IMG/VR virus record: IMGVR_UViG_3300025655_000321 | Coordinates: 1 to 22,490 of that record | Length of the DNA stretch: 22,490 bases | Source of the DNA: a virus | Direction: 5' to 3' (one strand) | Shown here: positions 4,016 through 22,167 of the stretch, piece by piece | Position numbering within the stretch: the first letter of the stretch is position 1 | How the letters are laid out: the number at the start of each line of letters is the position of its first letter | The notes under the pieces: generated by a model | Databases searched by the model: none | The model's input: the letters and a program-made list of their open reading frames with translations, nothing else | What the model was told of the DNA's origin: nothing | Translations under genes and position numbers: made by a program

Positions 4016-5941
4016 TTACTGTTTTCCGTCTGAGCGTACGTCAAGCCGTGGATTGCCCAACTGCCATTGCACTCCCAAGTCCACCGAACTGACTTTTAGC
4101 GCCATCTGTCTGGCCCGAGCACGTACAAACACTTGATCTGTAAAGGTGCTGACCGAGGTGTTAATCACCCGCTGGGAATCAGATGGATCATTTTGGAAGT
4201 TGGAGCCTGGGTAATTCCGAGGGCGTATGGTTAACGTCACCTCTGGAGCCGCAGCCGTTGAGGTATTGAAGTTGATGTCTGGAATCATCCGGCGGGTAAG
4301 CATGTATGTCTCACCGCTGTTATCAGTGATGTCAAAGTCCGACGACTGAATGAAAGACTCCATGGGTAAGCCAGCATCATTAATGCCAGACTCGTGGGTG
4401 TATAGAAGGCCCGGATCTTGGTTTTCTGGGGTGTAGGCTGCAATTGGCAGGTCACGGGAAGCCACATCCAGCCAAGCGGTTCGGCCTAACTGTCCGTAAT
4501 ACCAAATTTGATCGAGGTGGTTGTAGATCACATAACGATCTACCCAGTCTGAAGTCCCGCTTGGGTAGAACCACCAGACCTCATTAAAGCCCTCGTTCGT
4601 TCCACAAATAACTTGGTCAGACTGGGCGTAGTTGATGTCCTTGAAAACGTACTCCCGCAGGGTGCAGGGGAGGGTTCGCACCCGACCGTCATACATATAG
4701 AACTTATCAAGTCCCATCCAATACGTGATGTTGTTAGCAGAGATGGTTGCCCGTGGCCCCATGATGGAAATGTTGTCAGCGTATTCCTGTAAGCCAAACA
4801 CATCGGCTGTGCCCAAGAACTGGAGAGCAAACAAGTGGGTATCCGTAAATACAAGAATCTCCTGCCGTGTTGCAAGTGCACGAACAATCCGAGATCCCCG
4901 AGAAACCCTAAGAAAACCAGCAGAATTTGTTGCCAACGGCTCCCACATCACCGGGTCATCTTGACTTGCCCAACGAATCAACAGAGGATCAAAGTCTCCT
5001 GAAGAACCGCCGTATGGCTGGCACCCAAAGGCAAGCAAATGCTTATCATTCTGAGAAATCAGAATTTGCATGGCTGTTTCAGGTACATCTGTTGCCCCTA
5101 CCAATGAAGACAACAGAACCGCTGGCGTGGTCAAAGCAGTGGTTGGGTTGACTGACGTCCCCCGTTCCCAATAATAGATCGGCCCACCCACAGCAACGTT
5201 TGTTCCGGTCGTATCAGACCGGATGTTCATCACCAAATCGTTGTCGAAGTTGTCAAACCACCAATCTCGCTGCGGGAGAAACACGGGCGTTGGAGAAGCA
5301 AGCCCCCATCCGTATGAACCACTCCAAGCACCTGTACCCCAACCATATCCAGCCGTTATGGAAGGAAAGCCAGGGTGAATTTGACAGGCAATATCAATGG
5401 CGCTTCCGCCACCAGCAGCCACCGTAGAAGTAGCAGCAGTTGTAACTTGGATCGTAAACGAATCGGCATCAGGTACCGTTAAAACAAGGTGCTCAGTATT
5501 GATCTCGGCATCAGGGATTCCACCAACATCTCCTGTTACGCCGGATATGGTGACGTAATCTCCAACCAAGCAACCGTGTGCCGTTACGTTAATAGTGACA
5601 GTCGTAGACGTATTAGTTGTTTCAATACAGTCGTCTGTGTCAGGTGTGGTTAATGTAGTCCGAATAGGTGTTATGTTGTAAAAAATACCACCGACCTCGA
5701 TATAGACCTTTTCGTTCGTGCCTACTGCCAGTAGATTGTCGGTATACGATGTGATCCAGTTCCACATCTGACGACACGTTCCCACAAACCGCTCGGACGT
5801 AGTTTCAATCCAGCCGCCAATTTTTTGTGGGTAGCCAGAAAAGAACCGGATCTTGTCGCACTCGTACCACCCGCCTTCGTTGGCATAGTTGGTCGTGTCC
5901 CGGTTAATTCCCGGCTTGAATTTAAGCTTGAGGAAGGGCAT
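4016..5941 (-). CDS. Tail nozzle protein (P22 gp10-like), with an inserted repeat domain
   Basis: This 641-residue protein begins MPFLKLKFKPGINRDTTNYA, then NEGGWYECDKIRFFSGYPQK and GGW, the typical opening of podovirus gp10-like tail nozzle proteins. It contains beta-propeller-like strands (LLAVGTNEKVYI, RPRNYPGSNF near the C-terminus). About residues 111-168 form an insert (TVTINVTAHGCLVGDYVTI, GGIPDAEINTEHLVL, DADSFTIQV) resembling the FCCH/HG-x3-GD-x-V domain found in several phage proteins. The nozzle closes the tail channel and supports fibres. A large, well-conserved and mostly intact protein. Confidence 0.8.
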   Translation of the reverse strand: MPFLKLKFKPGINRDTTNYANEGGWYECDKIRFFSGYPQKIGGWIETTSERFVGTCRQMWNWITSYTDNLLAVGTNEKVYIEVGGIFYNITPIRTTLTTPDTDDCIETTNTSTTVTINVTAHGCLVGDYVTISGVTGDVGGIPDAEINTEHLVLTVPDADSFTIQVTTAATSTVAAGGGSAIDIACQIHPGFPSITAGYGWGTGAWSGSYGWGLASPTPVFLPQRDWWFDNFDNDLVMNIRSDTTGTNVAVGGPIYYWERGTSVNPTTALTTPAVLLSSLVGATDVPETAMQILISQNDKHLLAFGCQPYGGSSGDFDPLLIRWASQDDPVMWEPLATNSAGFLRVSRGSRIVRALATRQEILVFTDTHLFALQFLGTADVFGLQEYADNISIMGPRATISANNITYWMGLDKFYMYDGRVRTLPCTLREYVFKDINYAQSDQVICGTNEGFNEVWWFYPSGTSDWVDRYVIYNHLDQIWYYGQLGRTAWLDVASRDLPIAAYTPENQDPGLLYTHESGINDAGLPMESFIQSSDFDITDNSGETYMLTRRMIPDINFNTSTAAAPEVTLTIRPRNYPGSNFQNDPSDSQRVINTSVSTFTDQVFVRARARQMALKVSSVDLGVQWQLGNPRLDVRSDGKQ

Positions 5942-5943
5942 AG

Positions 5944-6408
5944 TTAGGCCACAAGTCCTTGTAGATAAACCGTTTTACCATCTTTCTTGGTGGCTGTCAG
6001 CACCTCTTTTTTGTTGTCCTCAGCCACGTACGACACGTGCACCCAACCGCTGTCAGGAATGCCGGGGGTGTAGAACTCAAGGATCAGTTGGCGGAACTCA
6101 AGGTTATCCCTGATCCACTCAGCCAGTTCAGCGTTTGCCACACCGGGAATCTCAATATCTGCGGCCTGCCCACGGGTGTGATCCGAGTTACGACTTCCAC
6201 CCACCTTGGCATTGACGTCCGGGTGCCGGTAGGCAGAATTCACCTTAACGCCTTTACCGTAGTGGTCCCGCACAGGCTGGAGCACCTTCTCAGCCAGTAG
6301 TTGCAGTGCAGCAAGTTCCTGCTCACCGGGGTTGTTCTCCAGTCCATGACGCAGAGCGGTCTCGGACTTGGTCATCTCCGCAAGGGTAAAGTTTTTGGTC
6401 AGGTTCAT
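5944..6408 (-). CDS. Endolysin, peptidase M15 family
   Basis: This 154-residue protein starts MNLTKNFTLAEMTKSETALR, with a good GGAG site. It has a zinc-peptidase core: VNSAYRHPDVN, then SDHTRGQAADIEI (His77, Asp84) and LILEFYTPG leading to SGWVHVSY (His124). This set of ligands fits the M15 D-Ala-D-Ala peptidase family often used as phage lysins to cleave peptidoglycan stem peptides. No signal peptide is visible, so release depends on the holin. A three-codon tail (GLVA and stop) precedes the nozzle gene by two bases. Confidence 0.85.
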   Translation of the reverse strand: MNLTKNFTLAEMTKSETALRHGLENNPGEQELAALQLLAEKVLQPVRDHYGKGVKVNSAYRHPDVNAKVGGSRNSDHTRGQAADIEIPGVANAELAEWIRDNLEFRQLILEFYTPGIPDSGWVHVSYVAEDNKKEVLTATKKDGKTVYLQGLVA

Positions 6409-7869: not shown

Positions 7870-8430
7870 TTATATAAACCAAGTAATAATAGAGTACCGA
7901 ATACCTTTAGTAACAGGCATTATTTCGTGCGGATACATAAAATTTGAAGGGAACATGATACACGATCCTTTTTTTAACTTGTATTTTAATTCACGATTAA
8001 AAAAAGCAAACTCTCCGCCTTCATAATCGTCGTTTAAAATAAACGAGCAAGATACAGCACGAGGTCTAGCTTTAAACGAATCTGTATGTTGCGTATAGAA
8101 TTGACCTTCTTTGTACCGTAAAAGTTCATACCCAGAATCTTCTTCGATTCTACAAAAAGAAAACTTTTCGTTGTATTTTTTTATTGCAAACCCAGCAGAT
8201 GCAAAAATATATTTATCTAATTTAGACCTTACTTTTGGATTTTTGTCTATGATATGTGGGTAAGACAAAACAATTGTCTCAGCGGTTCTAATCTTATCAT
8301 CAACCAAACCGTTTCCAATTACTGTTTTTTGCCATTCTTCTTCTTTATTAAATTCTTCCAAAATAGCATCGCAAAGAGCATTAGTCATGACATTTTCAAA
8401 CACAACAATATAATCATTAATATTTTTCAT
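7870..8430 (-). CDS. 2-oxoglutarate/Fe(II) oxygenase B, prolyl-hydroxylase type
   Basis: This 186-residue protein has the classical prolyl-4-hydroxylase-like core: LLRYKEGQFYTQHTD with His115 and Asp117, SCSFILNDDYEGGEF (the GGE turn), KKGSCIMFPSNFMYPHEI with distal His168, and GIRYSIITWF with Arg178 for 2-oxoglutarate. Such enzymes hydroxylate proline or related residues or other substrates; phage relatives are common in cyanophages but mostly uncharacterised. The protein is distinct from oxygenase A, so two separate oxidations may occur. The DNA is strikingly AT-rich: bases 8161-8220 contain only 15 G or C. Confidence 0.87.
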   Translation of the reverse strand: MKNINDYIVVFENVMTNALCDAILEEFNKEEEWQKTVIGNGLVDDKIRTAETIVLSYPHIIDKNPKVRSKLDKYIFASAGFAIKKYNEKFSFCRIEEDSGYELLRYKEGQFYTQHTDSFKARPRAVSCSFILNDDYEGGEFAFFNRELKYKLKKGSCIMFPSNFMYPHEIMPVTKGIRYSIITWFI

Positions 8431-9011
8431 AAAATACTTTTCGGTATTTCATCAACTGGTAGAGTTGGTTCTTGTTGTTGGAACTTGTCAAAATATGCCC
8501 AAGATTTGCTGCCGTAAGATCGAACGTAGTGCATAAATAATTGCACACACTCTTGACCTTCAAATTTATTACGCCAATGATCTGATTGACACCCTAAATA
8601 CATTACAGCATCACCAGGCTCTAATTCAATTGATGTTTCAAAACCGTCAGGACGTTGAAAATAAATAGGCCAGTCTTTGTCTTTTGAAAGATTAACTGTA
8701 AAACTAACTTCACAAGCAGGGCGGTCACGATGGCGAAGAAGTTCCGAACCTTCTTTATAAACACGTGCGTATGTGTAAGTTGGTAAAACCTTTTCTCCTA
8801 ACAATTCTGAAACTTCAGGTATTTTTTCAACAAGCAATCTTAAAAACGGTATAAAGTTGTACATTGAGTGCGAATTAGGCGCTTGAATATCACCCTCAAG
8901 ATTAAACTTAGTACAGTGTTGTTTAAACTCTTTTGAAAAAGCAGCAGCAAAATTGGATGTTATAAAACCCGGAACATGTAAGTAATTATTTTGAATTATT
9001 TCAAGTCGCAT
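8427..9011 (-). CDS. 2-oxoglutarate/Fe(II) oxygenase A
   Basis: This 194-residue protein shows the double-stranded beta-helix signature of phage 2OG oxygenases: YARVYKEGSELLRHRDRPAC, with His94 and Asp96 as the HxD metal ligands, then EVSFTVNLS, a strand PIYFQRPD, ELEPGDAVMYLG and SDHWRN with the distal His145, followed by VQLFMHYVRS. The family decarboxylates 2-oxoglutarate to hydroxylate a protein, nucleic-acid or small-molecule substrate. The substrate here is unknown. It overlaps the cupin by 16 bases and the second oxygenase by 4 bases (ATGA). The sequence is much more AT-rich than the flanking virion genes. Confidence 0.82.
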   Translation of the reverse strand: MRLEIIQNNYLHVPGFITSNFAAAFSKEFKQHCTKFNLEGDIQAPNSHSMYNFIPFLRLLVEKIPEVSELLGEKVLPTYTYARVYKEGSELLRHRDRPACEVSFTVNLSKDKDWPIYFQRPDGFETSIELEPGDAVMYLGCQSDHWRNKFEGQECVQLFMHYVRSYGSKSWAYFDKFQQQEPTLPVDEIPKSIL

Positions 9012-10017: not shown

Positions 10018-11067
10018 TTAATTTTTAGTAGCCCGAATAACGTCAACATACTTAACAGACAAGTCAATAGCATTCCCACTAAACGTTCCTGATCCACTTG
10101 AAAACGAAAATGGGTGAGTGTGCGATCCTCCGCCACCGGTTGCGCCTGTTGCAGCACCTGTTATATATTGAGGGCTAAGGCCAAAGCCTGTGGGGTTTGA
10201 ACCGGGACCAGTTACTGAAACGAAGTGTGTGTGACTCGGGATTTGAGGTGTAGTAAGTGTTGTAGCACCAGCCGAACCTGATACCGCTGTAATTGATACT
10301 GAGCCTGTTGGGGTTTGTGAAGCAAATGCAGTTGTAAAATCCACCGAGCCACCTGTGCTTGCTGACCCCGTCACAACTCTAAGGCCAGAGTTGTTGTAGT
10401 TAGATGTGTCTTTAGTCCAGCCAGTGGGTGCAGAGGTCTGGGCAAACAACATCACAGTACCAGAATCAAACGCTGGGGAGCCAGCAGAAGAAGTCCAAGT
10501 TGTGCCGTTTGAGGTCAAAACATTGCCCGATGTACCTGGCGCTACGAACTGTGGAGAAGATGTTCCGTTACCAAGCAGGACATTATTGGCTGTCAACGTT
10601 GTTGCACCCGTACCACCAGAAGCCACCGGCAAAGCAGAACCTAGGGTCAACGATGTCATGTGCGTAGTGACGTCCACCACATTGGTGCCGTTGTTAAACA
10701 CCCACATTGACTTGCCAGCAGGGACAGCGACTCCTGTACCCGTGGTGTTCTTGACCGTGACCGTGTCGGCTAGGCCGTTGTTAATGATGTAGGGCTTGTC
10801 GATCTGGCACCCAGAACCCAGTATGAGGTTACGTGCCCCGCCGCTGGTCCCCGTGAGGTTTAGTCGGAGATGCCGAGCCGATTGGGTGCTGTTGGTATTG
10901 GTCAGCGTAAGCGTGACATCGCTACTAGAGAACGAAACGTCAGCCGACCCGACGATGGCCTCTTCGATGGCTGTGCCAAGGTTAGTGTTGGTTGTAGATC
11001 CCCATGTACCGACCTGTTCGCCGGTTCCAATGAGTTCAATTTTTAAATCTGAAAAGGTAGAGGCCAT
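10018..11067 (-). CDS. Tail fibre with phage tail collar domain
   Basis: This 349-residue protein begins TFSDLKIELIGTGEQVGTWG, then STTNTNLGTAIEEAIVGSAD, a widely shared N-terminal attachment module of phage fibres. Residues 140-200 are a repeat-like shaft (PVASGGTGATTLTANNVLLG). From residue 203 a tail-collar domain starts (GTVMLFAQTSAPTGWTKD), with QIPSHTHF at 275-282 and GGGGSHTHPF at 311-320, followed by LSVKYVDVIRATKN. The paired HTH-type His motifs are those that bind metal in short-tail-fibre (T4 gp12/gp37-like) tips. Role: receptor-binding fibre. Confidence 0.85.
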   Translation of the reverse strand: MASTFSDLKIELIGTGEQVGTWGSTTNTNLGTAIEEAIVGSADVSFSSSDVTLTLTNTNSTQSARHLRLNLTGTSGGARNLILGSGCQIDKPYIINNGLADTVTVKNTTGTGVAVPAGKSMWVFNNGTNVVDVTTHMTSLTLGSALPVASGGTGATTLTANNVLLGNGTSSPQFVAPGTSGNVLTSNGTTWTSSAGSPAFDSGTVMLFAQTSAPTGWTKDTSNYNNSGLRVVTGSASTGGSVDFTTAFASQTPTGSVSITAVSGSAGATTLTTPQIPSHTHFVSVTGPGSNPTGFGLSPQYITGAATGATGGGGSHTHPFSFSSGSGTFSGNAIDLSVKYVDVIRATKN

Positions 11068-11459: not shown

Positions 11460-12740
11460 TTAACTCCAAGAAACATTACCGGTTCCGGCAGTAAATGTTG
11501 CAACAGTAAAACCTCCAGCAGTTGATGTTGAGTAAGTAAGTCCGCCACCCGGGTTGGAAATAGTACGAGTATCTGGATATTTAAAAATAACTACGCCGGA
11601 CCCTCCTACACCCCCAGATCCAAGCCGACTTCCCCCTGCACCGCCTCCAGTGTTTGCCCCGCCGGAAGTTCCGTTATTGTTACTTGACCAGCCCCCTGCA
11701 CCACCTCCACCAGCGCCGCCAGACGCTTGCGACCCACTATATGCGCCTCCACCGCCACCACCGGCTCTAGTTACCGAACTTCCAGTAATCGAAGACGCAG
11801 TTCCAGCACCTCCAACCCCCAGGTTGCCCGACCCAGCACCAACCGCACTTGCGCCACCACCACCCCCGGCACGGAAGTTGCCGTTTGTTTCTGCTGTGCC
11901 GCCGTTATTACCTTGCCCGGAGGTGCCTGCTCCACCCGCCCCTCCGTTTGTGCCACCGCCACCGCCTGAGCCACCACTTCCACCAGGAGCGCTCCCTCCT
12001 CCCCCTCCACCACCACCTTCTGAAGTAATAGATGAAAAAACTGAATTACTACCTTTGCCACCAGAAGACACTCCAGATCCTGCTGATCCACCAGCGCCAA
12101 CCGTAACCGTTAAATTAGTGCTTGTAAGAACTGGAAAATTAGCGGCTGTTCTATATCCACCCGCACCGCCGCCACCAGCAGATGCACCATTAGATGCGCC
12201 TCCGCCACCACCACCGGCAACAACCAAATATTCAAGATTAAATTGCAACGATAATGGAACTCCGCCTACATAAGCATCGCCTGAAACAACCCACCCTTGT
12301 GTTGAATCAATATAAGTGAGTGTCAGTGCCTCTCTGTTTGTAGAAATAGCCGCATCCAACACTGCAGAATTAATTTTTCCGCCATCGGCGTCAATTATTA
12401 AATTGTTAGTCGCAAATGTTCCCGCATAATCAACAAAAGTTATTGAATCTCCAGTAGATGGGGAAGATGGAAGGGTTGCAGTTATCGCTCCAGATGTTGT
12501 GTTGACTGGATAAGCAGCGCCAGCAGAAGCGTTAAAGTTGCTGGTTTTAACGGATTGCCAACTAATCACGCCAGAAGCATTTCCGTTAACAGTTAGGTTT
12601 CCCGCAATCGTTACGTTCTGGCTTGTGTCAATCGTAAGTGCCGTAGTGGTCCCGTTTGTTTTAAAAACAAGTTCGCCCGTCGTATCGCCAGTGGATACTA
12701 AAGCACTTCCTGTTGTGGTTCCTGCGGCTATTGATGACAT
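11460..12740 (-). CDS. Glycine-rich tail adhesin
   Basis: This 426-residue protein has three parts. Residues 1-60 are a fibre stem (GELVFKTNGTTTALTIDTSQ then NVTIAGNLTVNG). Residues 60-168 are a beta domain with TFVDYAGTFATNNLIIDADG and EALTLTYIDSTQGWVVSG. Residues 170-385 are an extreme Gly-rich region (many runs of five to eight Gly) opened by EYLVVAGGGGGG and closed by SGVVIFKYP. The YLVVAGGGGGG-type domain is known from phage fibre tips, and long Gly runs can form polyglycine-II bundles as in T-even gp38-type adhesins. Role: host-receptor recognition. A GGAGTAAC site precedes the ATG. Confidence 0.8.
   Translation of the reverse strand: MSSIAAGTTTGSALVSTGDTTGELVFKTNGTTTALTIDTSQNVTIAGNLTVNGNASGVISWQSVKTSNFNASAGAAYPVNTTSGAITATLPSSPSTGDSITFVDYAGTFATNNLIIDADGGKINSAVLDAAISTNREALTLTYIDSTQGWVVSGDAYVGGVPLSLQFNLEYLVVAGGGGGGASNGASAGGGGAGGYRTAANFPVLTSTNLTVTVGAGGSAGSGVSSGGKGSNSVFSSITSEGGGGGGGGSAPGGSGGSGGGGGTNGGAGGAGTSGQGNNGGTAETNGNFRAGGGGGASAVGAGSGNLGVGGAGTASSITGSSVTRAGGGGGGAYSGSQASGGAGGGGAGGWSSNNNGTSGGANTGGGAGGSRLGSGGVGGSGVVIFKYPDTRTISNPGGGLTYSTSTAGGFTVATFTAGTGNVSWS
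11586..12233 (-). repeat. Coding glycine-rich low-complexity region
   Basis: Residues 170-385 of the glycine-rich adhesin are encoded here by irregular GGN-rich sequence (CCN on the plus strand). There is no strict unit length, but runs of five to eight Gly alternate with short Ser/Asn/Thr segments. Slippage or recombination in such sequence can vary adhesin tip loops. Confidence 0.75.
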
Positions 12741-13165: not shown

Positions 13166-13183
13166 AGTTTGCTCCTTGAAAAA

Positions 13184-13597
13184 TTAGCGGAAAACAACAA
13201 CATTTACGAATGATGCATCTGATCCGCTGCCCGCTCCAGTATAACTCGCAACAGCAACAGCATTTACTGTAGGAGACACAAGATTCTGGCGTGTTGACCC
13301 AACCCATCCATCGTTGCTGACTGTAACATTAACACTGTAATTCGCATCAGGCATCGCAGTCGTGAAATTAACCGTGTAAGAACCTGTGCCGTTGTCCGTA
13401 ATACTCGACACATTCCCATCTTCACGAATCGCTACAGTACTAGTACCATTGAAGTTCACCCATGCTCTGCAAGTGTAACTAGGTGCAGAACCAGACGGAG
13501 CCGCCAAAGGGGAGGTTCCAATCGTTAAACCATTGGCTAGAGTTGGCCCACCAGTCCCAGCCGCATCTGTTATGTTGTTTGCCGCTAAAGTTGACAT
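13184..13597 (-). CDS. Tail fibre paralogue D
   Basis: This 137-residue protein starts MSTLAANNITDAAGTGGPTL and has the shared core (TCRAWVNFNGTSTVAIREDG, SITDNGTGSYTVNFTT) at about residues 42-90. A unique C-terminal domain rich in Val, Asn and Ser ends VVVFR. It is preceded by AGGAG within the junction repeat. It is the last of the four copies; the region after it holds two small accessory-type genes. Its core DNA is nearly identical to copies A and C over the bases encoding SSITDNG and VAIRED, so gene conversion or recent duplication is likely. Confidence 0.75.
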   Translation of the reverse strand: MSTLAANNITDAAGTGGPTLANGLTIGTSPLAAPSGSAPSYTCRAWVNFNGTSTVAIREDGNVSSITDNGTGSYTVNFTTAMPDANYSVNVTVSNDGWVGSTRQNLVSPTVNAVAVASYTGAGSGSDASFVNVVVFR

Positions 13598-13603
13598 ATT
13601 TTC

Positions 13604-13618
13604 TCCTGATTAGCGGAA
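13604..13618 (-). repeat. Fibre-gene junction repeat, copy 3
   Basis: Third identical copy of the 15-mer, at the end of paralogue C and ahead of paralogue D. A partial copy (ATTAGCGGAA) is present at 13183-13192, at the end of paralogue D. Confidence 0.85.
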
Positions 13619-14059
13619 GATGGCGACACAACAAATTGATGGGTCTTGTGGATTGCTTGCGAGGTTTCTTATTAACATGCGCCCGCTGGACGACACCATT
13701 GTTGCTTCCGAAAAATTGCAGGCGTTGGTGTTATCAACAGTGGTCATCAGCATTGAGTAATTCCCGTCACTTAACGCACTTGTGAAATTCACCGTGTAGT
13801 CGCCTGTGCCATTATCCGTAATACTCGACACATTCTCATCTTCACGAATCGCTACAGTACCAGTACCATTGAAGCGCACCCATGCTCTTGCGCCATAGTA
13901 CGGAGCTGACCCAGTTGTTTGTGTGATTGCTTGGGTTGTGAGAGCCAGCGTTCCAGTTGTTTCAGGCAGCGTCAGCGTGTAGTCGGTATTGGTATTCGGG
14001 GCTGCAACAGTAAAAGTACCCGTTCCGCTTGCGTTAGGAGATAGTGCTATTTTTGACAA
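13610..14059 (-). CDS. Tail fibre paralogue C
   Basis: This 149-residue protein uses a TTG start (SKIALSPNASGTGTFTV) with AGGAG nine bases upstream; I find no better ATG. The N-terminal shaft (NASGTGTFTVAAPNTNTDYT then LTLPETTGTLALTT) matches that of paralogue A, and the core (ARAWVRFNGTGTVAIREDE, NVSSITDNGTGDYTVNFTS) matches all four. The C-terminal 45 residues differ from the other copies and end in VAIFR. The core has Gly-Ala-Arg where the others have Cys-Arg. Role: fibre or receptor-binding protein by analogy with related phage proteins. Confidence 0.75.
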   Translation of the reverse strand: MSKIALSPNASGTGTFTVAAPNTNTDYTLTLPETTGTLALTTQAITQTTGSAPYYGARAWVRFNGTGTVAIREDENVSSITDNGTGDYTVNFTSALSDGNYSMLMTTVDNTNACNFSEATMVSSSGRMLIRNLASNPQDPSICCVAIFR

Positions 14060-14068
14060 TTTATATTC

Positions 14069-14083
14069 TCCTGATTAGCGGAA
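14069..14083 (-). repeat. Fibre-gene junction repeat, copy 2
   Basis: Identical 15-mer (TCCTGATTAGCGGAA on the plus strand) at the end of paralogue B. It supplies the Phe-Arg-stop codons and the AGGA of the ribosome binding site for paralogue C. Confidence 0.85.
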
Positions 14084-14494
14084 AATGGCTAGCGTGACTA
14101 TGGAACTATCCTGACCCGAACCTGCTAGGTTGTAGCATAAAACTCGAAACGCACTTGTGGTTCTTGCTGTAAAGTCATCACCGCCGCGCACAAGATAGCC
14201 CGTTGCGGTATTACCTAAGTTCGTCCCACAATAATTTGCATCAGGCATAGCAGTCGTGAAGTTCACTGTATAGTCGCCAGTACCATTATCAGTAATACTC
14301 GACACATTAAAATCAGCACGGATGGCGACTGTGCTTGTTCCGTTGAAATTAACCCATGCTCGGCAAGTGTTAGAGTTGGAACTAGAGTCTTGAAGAATGA
14401 CTGGCGTATCCGCAGTCGTAGAACTAATCGAAGTCACCCCCGTCAGCGTTCCAATGCTGCTTATGCCTACTGAGCCGTCTAGTACGATAGCCAT
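14075..14494 (-). CDS. Tail fibre paralogue B
   Basis: This 139-residue protein has a short N-terminus (MAIVLDGSVGISSIGTLTGV, with a Thr/Ser-rich linker). The core starts TCRAWVNFNGTSTVAIRAD and continues NVSSITDNGTGDYTVNFTT. A divergent C-terminal domain of about 45 residues ends in LAIFR. The core is the most diverged copy at the DNA level (AIRADFN rather than AIREDGN). It likely serves as an alternative or additional receptor-binding protein. The upstream Shine-Dalgarno is weak (GGTGGTGA), so expression may depend on coupling to the previous gene. Confidence 0.75.
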   Translation of the reverse strand: MAIVLDGSVGISSIGTLTGVTSISSTTADTPVILQDSSSNSNTCRAWVNFNGTSTVAIRADFNVSSITDNGTGDYTVNFTTAMPDANYCGTNLGNTATGYLVRGGDDFTARTTSAFRVLCYNLAGSGQDSSIVTLAIFR

Positions 14495-14495
14495 G

Positions 14496-14810
14496 TCAGA
14501 TCACCACCCATCTTGAACCGCTATCAATAGTCACCGTAACCCCAGAATCTACCGTTATTGGTCCCGTGCTCATAGCGTTGCTGGTTGACGCCAAAGTGTA
14601 GTTGGCGGTTATTGTTTGCGGGTTCGTATAAAAACCCGAGGATGCATAGAAATCATTTGCTGTTAGTTGGTTGGCAATCGTTACGTTCTGGGACGCATCA
14701 ATGCTAATAGCCGTCGTGTCATCGGTCTGAATGACAAGCTCATTGTCCGTATCACCGGAAGCAATTAATCCACCGGGACTTGAAGATGTGCTATTTATTG
14801 ATGAGGGCAT
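14496..14810 (-). CDS. Short modular fibre protein
   Basis: This 104-residue protein joins two modules seen elsewhere in the window. Its N-terminus (SGDTDNELVIQTDDTTAISI then DASQNVTIANQLT) resembles the start of the glycine-rich adhesin at 11460-12740. Its C-terminus (TANYTLASTSNAMSTGPITV, then SGSRWVVI) resembles the end of the protein at 15376-15852. It lacks the CRAWVNFNG core of its neighbours. It is probably a short fibre or fibre-tip adaptor. The ribosome binding site is weak (AGGAC). Its stop lies one base before the next ATG. Confidence 0.7.
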   Translation of the reverse strand: MPSSINSTSSSPGGLIASGDTDNELVIQTDDTTAISIDASQNVTIANQLTANDFYASSGFYTNPQTITANYTLASTSNAMSTGPITVDSGVTVTIDSGSRWVVI

Positions 14811-14817
14811 TTGTTAG

Positions 14818-14832
14818 TCCTGATTAGCGGAA
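14818..14832 (-). repeat. Fibre-gene junction repeat, copy 1
   Basis: The plus-strand 15-mer TCCTGATTAGCGGAA encodes the terminal Phe-Arg-stop of paralogue A on the minus strand and then AGGA, part of the ribosome binding site of the next gene. Identical copies sit at two other fibre-gene junctions. Confidence 0.85.
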
Positions 14833-15366
14833 GACTAAAATATTAACATTAGGACTATCGTCTCTCTGAACACTCGCCGCATTGTTGTAGATAGTGCCAA
14901 AATTTAATTGAGTGGTTGATCTCGTGTCGTTTGAATCTTGTCCAAGATAACAAGTCAGGGTATTTGTATAGTTAGCCGCCGCAGTTCCTGCAAAAGCATA
15001 GTTCACATCCGGCATCGCAGTCGTGAAGTTCACGGTGTAGTCGCCCAAGCCGTTATCTGTAATGCTCGACACATTCCCATCTTCACGAATCGCTACAGTG
15101 CCAGTGCCGTTAAAGTTCACCCAAGCACGACAGGCATAAAGGGGCGCGGTACCAGAAACCGTAGCAAATTGAGCAGAATCTATATTAGGCGTAGTTAGTG
15201 TAGGACTTGTCAGCGTTTTGTTCGTCAGCGTTTGAGTAGCATCTGTGCCAACCACAGTTGTGGTCGCTTGTGGGAGCGTCAGCGTGTAGTCCGAGTTTGT
15301 ATTCGGCGACTCAATCGTTACCGAACCGGTTCCTGAAGCGTTTCCTTGAATGACGACGTCAGACAT
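14824..15366 (-). CDS. Tail fibre paralogue A
   Basis: This 180-residue protein is the longest of four paralogues. The N-terminal stem (NASGTGSVTIESPNTNSDYT then LTLPQATTTVVGTDATQTLT, followed by TNKTLTSPTLTTPNI) is a standard phage fibre shaft motif. A nearly constant core follows, beginning ACRAWVNFNGTGTVAIRED and running through NVSSITDNG and YTVNFTTAMPDVNYA (about residues 78-125). The last 55 residues are unique to this copy, apart from the shared terminal VFR. The gene is preceded by GAGG and ends in the junction motif shared with its paralogues. Expected role: receptor-binding or fibre-tip protein. Confidence 0.78.
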   Translation of the reverse strand: MSDVVIQGNASGTGSVTIESPNTNSDYTLTLPQATTTVVGTDATQTLTNKTLTSPTLTTPNIDSAQFATVSGTAPLYACRAWVNFNGTGTVAIREDGNVSSITDNGLGDYTVNFTTAMPDVNYAFAGTAAANYTNTLTCYLGQDSNDTRSTTQLNFGTIYNNAASVQRDDSPNVNILVFR

Positions 15367-15861: not shown

Positions 15862-18201
15862 TTAATCTACCGTAGGAACGTCTTGCCAAGTTGTGTTCTC
15901 AGAAACGTTGATTACAGCCCAACTCGTAACCCCAGCGCTTTGTGTATTCTGCCATATAACAGATTGGCTGTCATTAATCAACTCCCACAAAAATCTAGCC
16001 AGTGGGCTGTCCGAGGCTATGCCAAGTTCTTGAATTACGGCTTTAAAGTCAGCGTTAGCACGGGTGGTATCCAGCCCGGAGGCGGATTCGTTTATAAAGT
16101 GCTGGAAGATACCTATAGCCGACACCTGATCTGAACCCTGGGCCACCTCGTCAACAAATACTTGGAAAGACCCCGTAGCCGATACTTCATCGGCCCCAGA
16201 CGCAGACTCCGACACATTTGACAAGAAAGCGATCAGCGCAGAAGCGATCTCAGAAGCCGTCACAGTTTCAGCAACCGAACTATTCGCTATTTTTGACGCA
16301 GAAACCTCGTCAGCCCCGGTAGCCGTTTCCTGCACTAGAGAACTAAAGTCAACTGCCCCAGAAACAGAGTCCTGCCCCTGCCCGGACTCCTGTACCAAAC
16401 CCGTAAAGTCAACGGCGCTGGATACTTCATCGGCCCCGGTCGAAGACTCAATGACCACAACCACAAAAACTACCGCAGCCGACACCTCATCCGACCCAGT
16501 CGCCGTTTCTTGGATGAGATGTTGGAATGATCCAGTACCGGAAACCTCATCGGCTCCGGTCGCTGCTTCGTCAATCTGAGAAGTAAGGTCGGCCCCAGCG
16601 CTAACTTCATCTACACCGGCAGCAGACTCATCAATCTGGGCAGCGAAGTCAACGGCGCTGAAGACCTCATCACTTCCAGTAGCCGACTCATCAATCGCTA
16701 CACCGAAATCAACTGCACTGGAGACCTCATCTGAACCAACAGCCGCCTCATCTACAGCACCATTAAAAGATGCGCTTGCCGTTACTTCATCAGATCCGGT
16801 TGCGGACTCGTCAATGAAATCTTGGAACGTGCCGGTTGCAGAAACTTCATCTACGCCTGTGGCGGATTCGTCGATTTGAGAGGCGAAGTTTGCGTTAGAA
16901 GAAACTTGATCCGCGCCAGTAGCCGCTTCATCAATCTGAGCAGCGAAGTCAACCGCACTAGATACTTCGTCAGAAGCCGTGGCAGACTCATCAATTGCTA
17001 CACCAAAGTCAAATGCCCCGGAAACTTCATCCAACCCAGTGACAGACTCGTCAATTTGACTACCTAAAGAAACCCCTGATGACACCTCATCCGTACCAGT
17101 CGCCGACTCATCAATCTGAGATACAAAATCAGTGCTTGCATTAACCTCGTCAGACCCAGTAGCGGACTCATCAATCTGGGAGGCAAAGTCCGCTGTAGCA
17201 CTAACTTCATCCGTACCTGTGGCAGATTCATCAACTTGAGAAGTAAAGTCCGCTGTAGCACTAACTTCATCTGAGCCAGTAGCCCCACCATTACTTACAA
17301 CTAATTGGTTCTGATACGCAAACAAATCTGAGTGTAATGTTCCAGAAAAAGCCGCCGCAGACTGATACTGCGTTGTTCCGGTGTTCGTAACATCGCCAGC
17401 AATACTTGAATATCCGGCGCCCCAACCACCAATGTCGCCACCAGACCAAAAGTTATTTAATAGGGCCCCACCAGCAGTGGTGCTTTCATCAATATAGAGA
17501 ACAGAATCTATCCACAGCCGGATTCTGCCTGGGTTGATCCGAATATCCCAGACCAAGAAATGTACGCCACCATCGAATTCAGGAATAGAACTGAGGGCTA
17601 CATTTTGAACAGCGGCGTTTGTGTTGCTTGTTTGTACAGCCGCGTTGCCGTTACCTGATCTAAACCGCAAGTAATAAACGCTATCAATTTTAGACACGCC
17701 AAGCCATGTACCAGTCCCGGTACCGCCATGCTCAAATAGGCATTCAGTTTTTGTGAACGACGATGGTAACTGTACATACCCAGCAAACACAGCATTTTGG
17801 GTTCTCGTTATAAAGTCTGCACTTAACGACCCTACTTTAAAAGTGCTAGTGAGCGAAAGGTTGCTATTAAGTCCAGTTTCTTGGATAACGCAATCAAAAT
17901 CCACAAGGCTACTAAACTCTTCAGACCCTGTAGCGGACTCGTCAATCTGACCACCCAAAGAAGCCCCAGCAGAAACCTCATCGCTCCCAGTTGCGGACTC
18001 TTGGATAACAACGACAAAAATAGCCGTTGCAGAAATGGAATCGGAGCCTGTTGCAGACTCCGATATTTGAGAAGAAAAATCTGCTAGCGCCCGTACAACA
18101 TCACTAGCAGTAGCAGATTCAGAGACGGTTACAAAATAAACAACCCCACCCTGCGGGAGGGTGGCAAACGGTACCTCAGAGAAGGTTGCATAACCGAACA
18201 C
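15862..18201 (-). CDS. Giant repeat adhesin with internal LamG-like domain
   Basis: This 779-residue protein begins at GTG (MFGYATFSEVPFATLPQGG, a common N-terminus of fibre proteins in aquatic phages). Residues 28-107 hold four 20-residue repeats with consensus E-S-A-T-G-S-D-E-V-S-A-x4-F-x2-x-I-D. Residues 108-127 are a degenerate repeat. About 128-300 form an inserted concanavalin-like (LamG-type) jelly roll, with FHLVWDIR-like and RIRLWIDSVLYID strands. Residues 307-724 hold 21 more repeats in exact 20-residue phase. The C-terminus (725-779) contains three W-x-x-x segments typical of such proteins. The likely role is an elongated fibre or host-attachment protein. Repeat copy number could vary by recombination. 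No protease or lyase motif is visible. Confidence 0.8.
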   Translation of the reverse strand: MFGYATFSEVPFATLPQGGVVYFVTVSESATASDVVRALADFSSQISESATGSDSISATAIFVVVIQESATGSDEVSAGASLGGQIDESATGSEEFSSLVDFDCVIQETGLNSNLSLTSTFKVGSLSADFITRTQNAVFAGYVQLPSSFTKTECLFEHGGTGTGTWLGVSKIDSVYYLRFRSGNGNAAVQTSNTNAAVQNVALSSIPEFDGGVHFLVWDIRINPGRIRLWIDSVLYIDESTTAGGALLNNFWSGGDIGGWGAGYSSIAGDVTNTGTTQYQSAAAFSGTLHSDLFAYQNQLVVSNGGATGSDEVSATADFTSQVDESATGTDEVSATADFASQIDESATGSDEVNASTDFVSQIDESATGTDEVSSGVSLGSQIDESVTGLDEVSGAFDFGVAIDESATASDEVSSAVDFAAQIDEAATGADQVSSNANFASQIDESATGVDEVSATGTFQDFIDESATGSDEVTASASFNGAVDEAAVGSDEVSSAVDFGVAIDESATGSDEVFSAVDFAAQIDESAAGVDEVSAGADLTSQIDEAATGADEVSGTGSFQHLIQETATGSDEVSAAVVFVVVVIESSTGADEVSSAVDFTGLVQESGQGQDSVSGAVDFSSLVQETATGADEVSASKIANSSVAETVTASEIASALIAFLSNVSESASGADEVSATGSFQVFVDEVAQGSDQVSAIGIFQHFINESASGLDTTRANADFKAVIQELGIASDSPLARFLWELINDSQSVIWQNTQSAGVTSWAVINVSENTTWQDVPTVD
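16030..17283 (-). repeat. Main 60-base coding repeat array (21 units)
   Basis: This stretch encodes residues 307-724 of the giant adhesin: 21 tandem units of 20 residues (the first lacks two residues). Every unit keeps E-x-A-x-G-x-D-E-V or a close variant and a hydrophobic position near unit residue 15. Units are diverged at the DNA level but strictly in phase, with no insertion or deletion inside the array. Several unit pairs are near-identical, for example the pairs containing AVDFGVAID and AVDFAAQID, which suggests duplication of two-unit blocks. Confidence 0.9.
17881..18120 (-). repeat. N-terminal 60-base coding repeats (4 units)
   Basis: Four 20-residue units encode residues 28-107 of the same adhesin, in the same consensus as the main array. 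They are separated from it by the LamG-like domain at about 17302-17820. A degenerate fifth unit (ETGLNSNLSLTSTFKVGSLS) borders the domain, so the domain appears to interrupt what was once one continuous array. Confidence 0.85.
18146..18164 (-). other. Perfect GC-rich inverted repeat inside the adhesin start
   Basis: The bases form a 7-base-pair perfect stem (CCACCCT / AGGGTGG) with a 5-base loop. On the transcribed strand it is followed by GGTTGTTTATTTTGT, a T-rich run. This looks like a weak intrinsic terminator or attenuator but lies within codons 13-19 of the adhesin gene, where it encodes ATLPQGG. It may modulate transcription or mRNA stability, or be chance. Confidence 0.35.
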
Positions 18202-18985: not shown

Positions 18986-19396
18986 TTACGAAAGTCGAAT
19001 AATTGCCGATGTACTTGTTGCGGCTGGGAATTGAACCTGAAAAGATGTTACTGAAGTCTTATCAGATCCAAAATCTAAAACACAGACTGCTCCGTTGTCC
19101 CCAGCCTTGTAAATCAAAGCACCTCGGGCAGTAATCACACCAGTCCATGATACGTTATTAAAGGTCACAAAGGCTACCCCACTGGATATGGAAACCGTTG
19201 GAGTTAGCACCTGCCCACCTGCCACATAGTTACCGCCTGAAGCCTCGCCTGTTACCGTGTAAGCAGTTGTAGAAGCATCCAACGTGGCTAAGTTGGTGTA
19301 AAGCGCAAGCCGAAACGTATTGCCGGAGAAGTCAAAGTTCCCGTCCAGCAAGCCGCTTTTAAATACGTTGCAGGTGTAGTTACCCGTAAATGGCAT
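18986..19396 (-). CDS. Small beta-rich virion protein, unknown function
   Basis: This 136-residue protein begins MPFTGNYTCNVFKSGLLDGN and is almost entirely beta-prone, with Ser/Thr/Gly-rich strands such as GNTFRLALYTNLATLD and GVITARGALIYK. Homologues with the opening NYxCNxFKxxLL and a FRLALYT motif are common beside neck genes in aquatic phages and are usually annotated only as structural or hypothetical. There is no signal peptide or enzyme motif. It lies directly after the second adaptor. It may be a tail or head surface protein; that is inference. Confidence 0.65.
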   Translation of the reverse strand: MPFTGNYTCNVFKSGLLDGNFDFSGNTFRLALYTNLATLDASTTAYTVTGEASGGNYVAGGQVLTPTVSISSGVAFVTFNNVSWTGVITARGALIYKAGDNGAVCVLDFGSDKTSVTSFQVQFPAATSTSAIIRLS

Positions 19397-20137
19397 TTAT
19401 TGCACCCCGTTGTTTTGTGGGAGGGGCGGAATACGAGCCTGACCACTACGGTACGCGTCACTGCGCTCCATGCCATCACCAAGACGTTTAGCCAACGACA
19501 GCGCTTCACTGTAGCGACCAAGATAATTTTGAATGACGTCTGACTCACCCTTCATGTAGGTATACGCCTCAAGTAACGTGCCATAAAGTAGTACGGAACT
19601 AAAGTTATCACCAAGCCAAGTAGACCCAGCAGTAACAATAGACTCGGGATAATAGTAATAATGAAGTTCAACGCTGTAGATGGCATCCGGTGTGGGTCCA
19701 AGGATGAAAGATAGTTCATTTGTCACCGCCGGGGGATTGTCATTTGTGGTCGTGGGGCCAAACAATGCGTAGTACTCAGGCTTGCCAGTATCCGTGGGCA
19801 CTGGATAACAAGCCCTAATAAAGTTCACATCTTTGTTTAGCAAATACTCATATGCACCCGTAACTGGGTCAATCACCGCCATCGAGTAGACGGCAAGAAA
19901 GTCACCGGGACTGGATAAGTACTTATTGCCGGATGTCGTCGATCCAGTCACATTCTTGCGAATCGAGGGGAACTGAACCGAGTTGTATATCCTCTGCTCG
20001 GCCTGTTTGATGAACGTATCAATCTGTTCTTTAGACGTAAAGTTAACATTGGCGGCTGTAGGGTCGCCATACTGAGTATTCGGAAAGTCGTTTTCCGTGT
20101 ACCCCTTAATCGTCTCAAACAGTTCGTTATACGTCAC
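19397..20137 (-). CDS. Second ring adaptor, phage gp6/SU10-adaptor type
   Basis: This 246-residue protein starts at GTG (MTYNELFETIKGYTENDFPN), with GGGGT just upstream. The N-terminus is a typical adaptor opening: TYNEL..., then SKEQIDTFIKQAEQRIYNSV around residues 35-54, followed by beta strands (YEYLLNKDVNFIRACYP, YSVELHYYYYPESIV) and a helical end (LLYGTLLEAYTYMKGESDVI, YSEALSLAKRLGDG). This is the usual architecture of phage gp6-like or SU10-like head-tail adaptors that stack on the portal or first adaptor. Family membership is by recognition. It ends NNGVQ and its stop directly precedes the next ATG. Confidence 0.72.
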   Translation of the reverse strand: MTYNELFETIKGYTENDFPNTQYGDPTAANVNFTSKEQIDTFIKQAEQRIYNSVQFPSIRKNVTGSTTSGNKYLSSPGDFLAVYSMAVIDPVTGAYEYLLNKDVNFIRACYPVPTDTGKPEYYALFGPTTTNDNPPAVTNELSFILGPTPDAIYSVELHYYYYPESIVTAGSTWLGDNFSSVLLYGTLLEAYTYMKGESDVIQNYLGRYSEALSLAKRLGDGMERSDAYRSGQARIPPLPQNNGVQ

Positions 20138-20140
20138 GAC

Positions 20141-20407
20141 TTACCCCATTTTTCCGCTGATCTTGCGGCCCTTGGTTGCAGCACCATAGCCACGCATCAC
20201 ACCAACACCAAACGGGTTGACCGGTGGATAGTCGCCACGGCTGATGTTTCCAACAGACATGTTCATCTTTTTCATCTCTGTAGCACCCGTCTCATAGTGG
20301 GAGTACGTGGACGCATCCGTGTCTTTGCCAGTCATCGTGTGAGGAGGGGCGTAGACCTCAGCAGGGCCGATCTCTTTGCCTTTGACCTTCATGCTGTACT
20401 TAGCCAT
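20141..20407 (-). CDS. 88-residue conserved phage protein, unknown function
   Basis: The product starts MAKYSMKVKGKEIGPAEVYA and ends with MRGYGAATKGRKISGKMG, a Gly/Lys-rich tail of the type seen in several neighbours. The middle is polar with several Met and Lys residues (EMKKMNMSVGN). No membrane segment or known motif is visible. AAGGGG lies upstream of the ATG, which overlaps the previous stop by one base; three bases separate its stop from the last base before the adaptor's GTG region. It is probably a small virion-associated protein of the neck region, but this rests only on context. Confidence 0.7.
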   Translation of the reverse strand: MAKYSMKVKGKEIGPAEVYAPPHTMTGKDTDASTYSHYETGATEMKKMNMSVGNISRGDYPPVNPFGVGVMRGYGAATKGRKISGKMG

Positions 20408-20574
20408 TATCGACCCCTTCCACTTGATCGCTGGTTCATGACTTTAGCCATACCACGACCGTATTTTTTCATGTCGAGGTTTGTCTTGCCACCTTTTTTC
20501 AAACCTTTGTGAGCCTCACCAGCGGGCTTATTAGCGTGCGCTTTAAGTGCTTCCATTGCTTTTTTGTCTGCCAT
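20407..20574 (-). CDS. 55-residue Lys-rich protein
   Basis: A short reading frame fills the space between the zinc-ribbon gene and the next gene. It begins at ATG 20574 after a clear AGGAG site and encodes MADKKAMEALKAHANK, then a Gly/Lys stretch (KGLKKGGKTN), a KKYGRGMAKVMNQR segment and the end SSGRGR. The stop shares one base with the next ATG. Composition and location match the other small basic proteins of this region. It is too short to assign a function; a virion or DNA-associated role is inference. Confidence 0.75.
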   Translation of the reverse strand: MADKKAMEALKAHANKPAGEAHKGLKKGGKTNLDMKKYGRGMAKVMNQRSSGRGR

Positions 20575-20583
20575 GATCTACTC

Positions 20584-21012
20584 CTAAGTAGTTACTACAG
20601 TTACAGTACCAAGTGCTATGCCCAAAACCAAGTTATTTGGTGTTAAGCCAGCGTCATCCGCTCTTGCCCCACCAACTGGCGCCCACCCCCATTGGATGAT
20701 TCTACTACCGCCGGACGGATCACCAAAGCCCAAAACGGTCGGGTCATTCGTAGCCAGCAATTGAAGTCCTGTATTACCTGCAACCTGATAAGAAGTGTCA
20801 CGGCGGGGATTACGCACCGCCTGCGGATCATCAACAGGGTAGAGGCCCAAGGACAACTGGGGCTGATCTGGGTCCCAGCACTCTTGGCAGACTTTAACGT
20901 TGACATTTTTGGTTTTGACAATTTCTGAGCGTAATGAATGAAGCGGGAACTGAAACCCACACCTGTCGCACATCGCAATTGCGATGCGTCCAAGGGTAAA
21001 TTTCGTAGTCAT
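20584..21012 (-). CDS. Zinc-ribbon-containing phage structural protein
   Basis: This 142-residue protein has two CxxC knuckles near the N-terminus, Cys15/Cys18 (CDRCG) and Cys42/Cys45 (CQEC), which would form a zinc ribbon. The linker PDQPQLSLGLYPVDDPQAVR follows, and the C-terminal half is Gly/Ala/Val-rich, ending in a hydrophobic beta-like stretch with no charged residues. Proteins of this shape are frequent beside adaptor genes in uncultured podovirus-like phages. The start codon overlaps the previous stop by one base (TAATG). It might be a minor virion protein or an assembly factor; no enzyme motif is present. Confidence 0.7.
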   Translation of the reverse strand: MTTKFTLGRIAIAMCDRCGFQFPLHSLRSEIVKTKNVNVKVCQECWDPDQPQLSLGLYPVDDPQAVRNPRRDTSYQVAGNTGLQLLATNDPTVLGFGDPSGGSRIIQWGWAPVGGARADDAGLTPNNLVLGIALGTVTVVTT

Positions 21013-21746
21013 TAGTACCCACCGCCGCCAATAAAGAACTCACGAGGCACAAACCGGATCGAGGCTTTCTCGCGGTCTTCACCCGCCGCCAAGTTCCACT
21101 GCTCCTCGTACGCAAGTTTCAGAATCTCCGTCCGTGCCTCTGCGCCGGGGATCTTCATTGAAAGATAGTAGGCCAGCCCAGCCACCATGCATGGGAGCAT
21201 CCGAAACGGGATGTCCTGGGTTTTTACACCGCCTTCACCCGCGTCCCCAATGCGCTTCATGCGCCAGTACACAAACGTGTACTGATCCCCGGGAGAATTG
21301 GGTGTAGGCCAGATGTTGATGGTGGGGTAGTTGATCCCTGTAGGCGTTGTAGCACCGGATTGCCGGTCAACCCAAACCTGAATTGGACGCCCCTGAGCAG
21401 TTTTATTAGGGATTGCCGCATAGGTAGAAACACTAATACGGCTGATTGTGATGTCTGATTGCGTTGCAACATCACCCGCATTTGTACGAATAACGTGCTC
21501 CAGCAGATCAATGGTATCGACAGGGAGGTTGTATGTGGCCTGTCCTGTGACAAGCGGTATAGAACCTTCCTCGATCGTCCAGAGGTTGATACCCCGGTTA
21601 GCCCACTCAATCGTCATCAGATTGAGGCTGCGACGTGCGGTTTTAAGGTCGTAACCCGTGCGCAACTCAGCACCGCACCGCTCGAAAGCCTCTTCGATGA
21701 TGTCTCTTAGTTCGAGATTAAAACTAGAGGTGCCTGATGTGGTCAT
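21012..21746 (-). CDS. Head-to-tail adaptor (P22 gp4-like ring protein)
   Basis: This 244-residue protein has the layout of a phage connector or head-completion protein. A helical N-terminus (ELRDIIEEAFERCGAEL, then LKTARRSLNLMTIEWANRG) is followed by a beta-rich middle (TGQATYNLPVDTIDLLE, INIWPTPN, YTFVYWRMKRI) and a C-terminal helix (ILKLAYEEQWNLAAGEDRE). The pattern resembles P22 gp4-type adaptors that form a ring under the portal. The last residues end in IGGGGY. It starts in an ATGA overlap and shares one base with the next gene. A second adaptor lies at 19397-20137, as expected for a two-ring neck. Assignment is by pattern only. Confidence 0.7.
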   Translation of the reverse strand: MTTSGTSSFNLELRDIIEEAFERCGAELRTGYDLKTARRSLNLMTIEWANRGINLWTIEEGSIPLVTGQATYNLPVDTIDLLEHVIRTNAGDVATQSDITISRISVSTYAAIPNKTAQGRPIQVWVDRQSGATTPTGINYPTINIWPTPNSPGDQYTFVYWRMKRIGDAGEGGVKTQDIPFRMLPCMVAGLAYYLSMKIPGAEARTEILKLAYEEQWNLAAGEDREKASIRFVPREFFIGGGGY

Positions 21747-21997
21747 TTCATTTTCCTATACGGAGCAACTTTTTGAGCCACCCGTTTTGGCTGGGAGACG
21801 AATTGTTTCCCTGCTGATCGTCCTGCACGCTTGGCCCGAGTTGTTGCGGCGTACTCCTGTGGGGAGAGCGCTTTGATGGCGGCGGCAGGGAGGTATCTTT
21901 CCCCCGTAGCCTTCGGTCCCTGCGTAGATGGTTTGCCACTCTTAGTTCTCCATTTCTGGGCAGTCCACGCTTTCAGGCTTTTCTGCGGAGCCTTCAT
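21743..21997 (-). CDS. Small basic conserved phage protein, unknown function
   Basis: This 84-residue protein is rich in Lys, Arg, Ala and Gln. It has an N-terminal SLKAWTAQKWRTKSGKPS segment and a central GERYLPAAAIKALSPQEYAAT segment; related proteins with this KSGK...GERYLP...AL..EYAATTRAK layout occur in many aquatic phage contigs. No catalytic motif, signal peptide or membrane helix is visible. ATGA overlaps at both ends tie it to the genes before and after. Its position just before the first adaptor suggests a minor virion or assembly protein, without direct proof. Confidence 0.75.
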   Translation of the reverse strand: MKAPQKSLKAWTAQKWRTKSGKPSTQGPKATGERYLPAAAIKALSPQEYAATTRAKRAGRSAGKQFVSQPKRVAQKVAPYRKMK

Positions 21998-22167
21998 TTC
22001 ATCTTCTTAAGAGTCTGCGCAAGTCGTGCACGCTGACCCAGTTTTCCAGGTTTTTTAGCCGCAGCAGCCAGTTTGCCAGCCGGGATCTTTTCACCCTTTT
22101 TGACACCCAACTCTGACCGCAAAGCACCGGGCTTCTTAATGGCAGACTGAATCCATTTTTTAGTCAC
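21994..22167 (-). CDS. Very basic 57-residue phage protein
   Basis: I place the start at a GTG at base 22167 (VTKKWIQSAIKKPGALRSEL), preceded at good spacing by GGGAGGTGGG, a strong ribosome binding site inside the end of the upstream gene. Longer versions with upstream starts would only read through the previous gene in another frame. The product is Lys/Arg-rich with very few acidic residues and contains KKPGALRSELGVKKGEKIPA, a pattern I recognise from many uncultured phages. It could bind DNA or decorate the head, but that is inference. It overlaps the next gene by 4 bases (ATGA). Confidence 0.75.
   Translation of the reverse strand: MTKKWIQSAIKKPGALRSELGVKKGEKIPAGKLAAAAKKPGKLGQRARLAQTLKKMK

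Follow-up and report, generated by a model that had tools for sequence, protein, structure and literature searches.

A tandem array of tail-fibre tip genes in an uncultured tailed phage, with tips probably exchanged by recombination through a constant core

The DNA under study, referred to here as the window, is a linear contig of 22490 bases that makes up an entire IMG/VR virus record; the minus strand of this contig encodes the structural operon of a tailed phage, including tail or structural proteins (Table 1). A preliminary description of the sequence had pointed to four minus-strand genes, here g1 to g4, that share a common core and end in (V/I)FR; an open reading frame check and a repeat search agreed with the coordinates, the strand, the core and the ends, which are (V/I)FR in 4/4 proteins. 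The repeat search recovered a single four-copy family of 158 nt (13338-13495, 13758-13915, 14232-14389 and 14999-15156), with the remaining copies 71-78% identical to the reference copy, and no inverted repeats in the window. Over a 49-codon core, the four genes are pairwise 73-88% identical in protein and 67-79% identical in DNA, in keeping with the earlier observation that the core DNA is alike in all four copies. The C-terminal parts, or tips, had been described as almost completely divergent, which holds insofar as they are pairwise 22-39% identical in protein, but they keep anchor positions and are not wholly unrelated. The fibre protein without a core that is encoded inside the array resembles the end of the upstream 158-aa protein over its C-terminal 45 aa.

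Table 1. Positions of the genes and repeats of the window that are discussed in the text
Feature	Position	Strand	Description
DNA-ejection-like protein	2-1663	-	
Stabilization protein	4016-5941	-	Homologues annotated as stabilization protein
Endolysin	5944-6408	-	
P75	12744-12971	-	Conserved 75-aa partner; phrog_20196
P63	12974-13165	-	Conserved partner of 63 aa, immediately after the array; candidate split-chaperone half
Core gene g4	13184-13597	-	137 aa; core 13331-13477, tip 13184-13330
Junction repeat copy	13604-13618	-	F-R-stop codons and start of ribosome-binding site
Core gene g3	13610-14059	-	149 aa, TTG start; core 13751-13897, tip 13610-13750
Junction repeat copy	14069-14083	-	F-R-stop codons and start of ribosome-binding site
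Core gene g2	14075-14494	-	139 aa; core 14225-14371, tip 14075-14224; AlphaFold2 model
Fibre protein without core	14496-14810	-	104 aa; between g1 and g2
Junction repeat copy	14818-14832	-	F-R-stop codons and start of next ribosome-binding site
Core gene g1	14824-15366	-	180 aa; core 14992-15138, tip 14824-14991; phrog_11355 tail fibre protein, E 3.5e-16
P158	15376-15852	-	158-aa conserved gene upstream of the array; served as anchor gene

Other parts of the window also differ among relatives. Positions 15862-18201 encode a 779-aa repeat protein (ESATGSDEVSA-type), which measures 281 aa in two related loci (L010 and L013) and 404 aa in a third (L018); in L007 the repeat block is rearranged. 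Between 11981 and about 19000 L008 does not differ from the window; from there on it diverges, and beyond 20153 it is 68-78% identical, whereas L007 is 100% identical to the window where L008 diverges (19000-22166). Two upstream haplotypes seem to meet here at a recombination boundary. A 322-aa L013 protein, encoded at another position and ending like the 104-aa protein of the array, carries the first 97 residues of a 349-aa collar-like fibre protein (10018-11067); 10018-11067 is a second mosaic fibre gene. Two overlapping open reading frames lie side by side at 7870-9011. PHROGs identify the first of them (7870-8430) as a 2OG-Fe(II) oxygenase, a type of gene also listed for marine phage variable islands (PMC3909814).

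The best family for all four core proteins was phrog_11355, tail fibre protein (E 6e-22 to 6e-15), which each of them matches over core and tip as one domain. Its model has 131 positions, and g1, g2 and g4 span 21-30 to 131 and g3 spans 29-97; the entry is silent on arrays, exchange and the P63-P75 partner described below. No Pfam family scored above its cut-off for g1-g4, and Gp53-like_C (PF21882) gave 12.1 bits with g4 against a cut-off of 24.9 and no match with g1-g3. The family is widespread, with at least 600 matches in a core-based scan of viral contigs, and the core protein is conserved across distant phages; a literature text search for the core motif found no paper. FR forms the C-terminus of 169 of the 199 complete unique members from 305 loci. 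When 107 members were aligned, the core proved constant and the tips kept the anchors TTS..R and D...V.VA.FR around some 27 variable residues, which suggests that the tip is a variable face on a conserved fold and not a free extra domain.

We modelled g2 with AlphaFold2 on this 107-sequence alignment and obtained a predicted eight-strand beta-sandwich for residues 46-138, with a mean pLDDT of 74 for the model, block means of 77-92 from residue 61 on and an uncertain N-terminal part. The best solved matches were the phiAB6 tailspike C-terminal domain (Z 8.8) and Pam1 (Z 8.0), followed by AP22 gp53 (Z 6.3), Helix agglutinin (Z 5.3), LKA1 gp49 and R-pyocin feet, with unrelated proteins interspersed and 8-25% sequence identity to the solved fibre and tailspike domains; the resemblance to lectin-like fibre feet (discoidin / H-type lectin fold) is of moderate strength, with Z at most 8.8 and a mean pLDDT of 74, and such Z values can reflect a common arrangement. 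A sequence search of solved structures with the tip domain gave nothing convincing. The R-pyocin foot is described as a jellyroll lectin fold with much the same set of relatives, in which variable distal loops on a conserved scaffold are the proposed sugar-binding site (PMC6363177); the C-terminal region of the phiAB6 tailspike is an independent beta-sandwich (PMC5314372). The predicted beta-sandwich of our proteins resembles the R-pyocin foot and the C-terminal domains of AP22 gp53, LKA1 gp49 and the phiAB6 and Pam1 tailspikes (Z 8.8 to 4.7), but those domains are the ends of long fibres or spikes, whereas the proteins of the array are stand-alone, 137-180 aa long and encoded in tandem. The model suggests that each protein has a short N-terminal part of its own, that the core forms a beta-sheet scaffold which stays constant, and that the tip presents a variable, lectin-like face and finishes with the conserved strand (V/I)FR. 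From the fold and the gene position, the tips may bind sugars or receptors on the host surface, and the array would then give the phage several adhesin specificities.

Alternatively, the four proteins could be Ig-like decorations of the virion, on its head or tail surface, that undergo exchange as fibre tips do without being the receptor-binding tips. Such a role would fit the sub-threshold Pfam matches to Ig-like families (Big_13 with 24.0 bits at a cut-off of 27, Filamin and Invasin_D3), the matches of g1 to two PHROGs of the class head and packaging, and the presence in the window of other fibre candidates, at 11460-12740 (glycine-rich PF21722) and 10018-11067. We nevertheless consider it improbable, given that tail fibre is the best family for 4/4 proteins, that the best fold matches are tailspike or fibre C-termini and H-type lectins, and that the homologue in Rhizobium phage PPF1 is annotated as a tail protein and stands in a row of genes that includes baseplate genes.

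We compared members across 305 loci after splitting each into N-part, core and tip; an early regular expression for cores was too strict, and the core sets were defined by profile searches. The loci are metagenome contigs, in which assembly errors are possible, and the comparison rests on these contigs and on predicted structures. For 68 cross-locus pairs with N-parts at least 90% identical, tip identity was 0.40 or less in 66 and 0.60 or more in two. Among 41 pairs tested, 15 formed islands, in which the N-part and the DNA 20-170 nt downstream were both at least 0.92 identical and the tip DNA between them was 0.49-0.58 identical; shuffled tips gave 0.52, the chance level. Chance-level tips between flanks of this identity do not come from point divergence. 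The converse was seen in nine pairs, whose tips were 80-94% identical in protein although their N-parts were unrelated. Together these pairs bear out the proposal that the tips are exchanged modules. The preliminary description had named relatives with the same four genes in the same order and no exchange as the contrary case; array content instead varies among relatives with the same flanking genes, and 63 loci (a few of which share a contig) held 0-4 core genes in the 1.0-6.5 kb between the P158-type gene and P63.

Metagenome contigs with repeats of 70-120 nt are prone to misjoining, and an assembler could have linked the wrong tips at repeated cores. We give this explanation almost no weight: L008, a second assembly of the locus, does not differ from the window anywhere in the array, cores at 67-79% identity can be distinguished by reads, the islands return to the same downstream DNA, which a repeat error would not do, and tandem core genes also occur in a complete circular genome.

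In L018 the genes that flank the array match those of the window (93% and 97% identical), but the tips and the gene order are different. Its g2-type gene is 92% identical to that of the window in N-part DNA, continues through about 30 near-identical core codons and then carries another tip; in the g4-type gene the tip is likewise replaced, and the N-terminal 38 aa of g3 are found on another protein. At L018:8140-8969 the g3-type N-part runs into another protein, of 179 aa, which is followed by its own 97-aa gene, and the same layout is present in L010, L011 and L013 (189-196 aa and 96-97 aa); the 179-aa-type protein and the 97-aa-type gene are perhaps a second tip-plus-partner type. A 798-aa open reading frame without a homologue in the window is inserted in the array between a g1-like N-part and a 104-aa gene at L018:3944-6340. 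L010 and L013 have one core gene at the array position.

We located the crossovers from the same-codon fraction, counting only codons for a residue that is identical in both sequences. In pairs with the same N-part this fraction dropped from 0.77 to 0.53 in the 5' to 3' direction through the core, whereas background pairs showed no such drop (0.36-0.57 throughout). The decay was present in 15/15 independent N-part groups, and none of 20000 background resamples gave one as large, indicating that crossovers fall inside the core, as had been proposed in the preliminary description for homologous exchange at shared cores. In pairs with the same tip, the last seven core codons were raised (0.78 vs 0.57) and most of the earlier core was not, which points to crossovers near the core end or to old exchanges and counts against placing every crossover in the core. 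Within the window, g3 (13817-13888) and g4 (13397-13468) have in common a minus-strand tract of 72 nt with 68/72 identical positions and no synonymous changes, and its run of 21 same codons was reached by 0/14726 background pairs; the tract points to exchange, or a late common origin, inside the lineage of the window.

A history without exchange, in which duplicated genes kept their core under protein constraint while their tips diverged rapidly by point changes, would agree with the retention of the core protein in distant phages and with the near-background synonymous identity of the core in unrelated pairs; from the latter, most of the likeness among the paralogs in the window reflects protein constraint. 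It does not explain chance-level tip DNA between flanks at least 92% identical, the same tip on unrelated N-parts or the graded synonymous identity through the core, and we hold it to be very unlikely. Recent duplication of whole tip genes was ruled out, as no same-genome pair has a tip in common.

We therefore favor, with a probability of roughly 0.8, the reading that the window comes from an uncultured tailed phage whose tail operon includes a tandem array of tail-fibre tips, and that the tips are exchanged by recombination through the constant core. The core DNA would support homologous or annealing-type recombination between co-infecting phages; a crossover in the core would bring in a different tip and leave the fold intact, the second crossover would lie at the end of the gene or within the one after it, and exchange would sometimes take place between copies of one genome's array. 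The core DNA identity of 67-79% is low for RecA-type recombination and counts against the exchange reading. An ERF-family annealing protein is encoded in two of 13 related records, one of which is L012 (79% identity in the upstream 193-aa protein); RecT and YqaJ were found in none of the 13.

The junctions between the genes had been proposed as a further exchange site. The 15-base junction repeat TCCTGATTAGCGGAA indeed occurs without mismatch at 13604, 14069 and 14818 and in part at 13183, and the 18-mer TTCCGCTAATCAGGAGAA has three matches with up to 3 mismatches against 0.01 expected. However, TTCCGCTAA is made up of the F-R-stop codons and is the commonest family end (36 members), and TCAGGAG in the junction is the ribosome-binding site of the next gene, and we rejected the junction repeat as mainly a recombination site on these grounds. 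In L018, TCAGGAGAATATAAATTGTCAAAA follows the stop of a different gene and precedes the same g3-type start, showing that the junction belongs to the downstream gene and stays with its N-part. The repeat is mostly FR-stop codons and a ribosome-binding site, and may be a place where the second crossover tends to fall.

A constant scaffold with a hypervariable lectin-like face is the classical form of target for a diversity-generating retroelement, and either hypermutation by such an element or a DNA-inversion switch could in principle lie behind the tip diversity. Neither has any appreciable likelihood in our judgment, as no reverse transcriptase or template repeat was found in the window or in the 13 related records (fragments of 27-66 kb), no tip has a second copy in its locus, the window is without the inverted repeats of a switch, and the tips differ in length and throughout.

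The array is followed by a conserved gene pair. P63 lies directly after 161 of 251 core genes. Among 21 P63 genes from loci chosen independently of the core, 19 had a core gene directly before them; the two exceptions were a cut locus and L018 with its inserted unit. P75 comes next after P63 in 122 of 168 cases, and 10 open reading frames of relatives encode both as a fusion. A fused homologue was predicted with a pLDDT of 95 as a small beta part and a helical hairpin, for which a fold search returned generic helical bundles only and no convincing solved structure; a sequence search of solved structures with P75 likewise gave nothing convincing. No Pfam family scored above its cut-off for P63-P75: the best P75 homologue reached 19.0 bits with Phage_tail_APC (PF16778; cut-off 26.6), which the P75 of the window itself did not match. 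P63-P75 homologues have weak similarity to tail fibre assembly PHROGs. In the complete circular 34.5-kb phage genome MW202867.1 (L310:15-1198), the order is P63, P75, core gene, core gene and then endolysin, the partner pair preceding the tips.

In Alteromonas phages A5 and V22, a lectin-headed tail fibre gene and a small downstream assembly-protein gene have moved between distant phages (PMC10579305). By analogy with that pair, and from the linkage, P63-P75 is probably a tip-assembly chaperone that matures the tips, but the Alteromonas chaperones are DUF4376 proteins, and P63-P75 has no Pfam match above cut-off. A more elaborate arrangement is conceivable, in which the locus is a dedicated cassette system, the core serves as both scaffold and recombination address, the tandem tips are displayed together on the virion and the invariant P63-P75 matures any tip; we regard it as possible but doubtful.

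Tail-fibre modularity is already known as a mechanism class, and the array is a well-supported variant of it. Phage receptor-binding proteins may have a near-identical N-terminus and an exchanged C-terminal domain (PMC10684548), and host-recognition genes form variable islands in marine phages (PMC3909814); here, in contrast, several tips are encoded in one genome, and the crossovers can be traced to a zone within a short constant core. Ackermannviridae carry up to four tail spikes, with adjacent adhesin genes and swappable receptor-binding modules (PMC8432352), but those spikes are large and enzymatic, whereas the array encodes small tips of one family. To these precedents the present case adds the arrangement of the tips in tandem, an exchange zone that can be seen in the short core, and the linkage to P63-P75. 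The array offers a countable case of tail-tip change in uncultured phages, with a large pool of interchangeable lectin-like ends, and the fixed P63-P75 pair can be used to locate such tips. The finding also makes it testable whether several tips are present per virion and whether one small split chaperone serves any tip.
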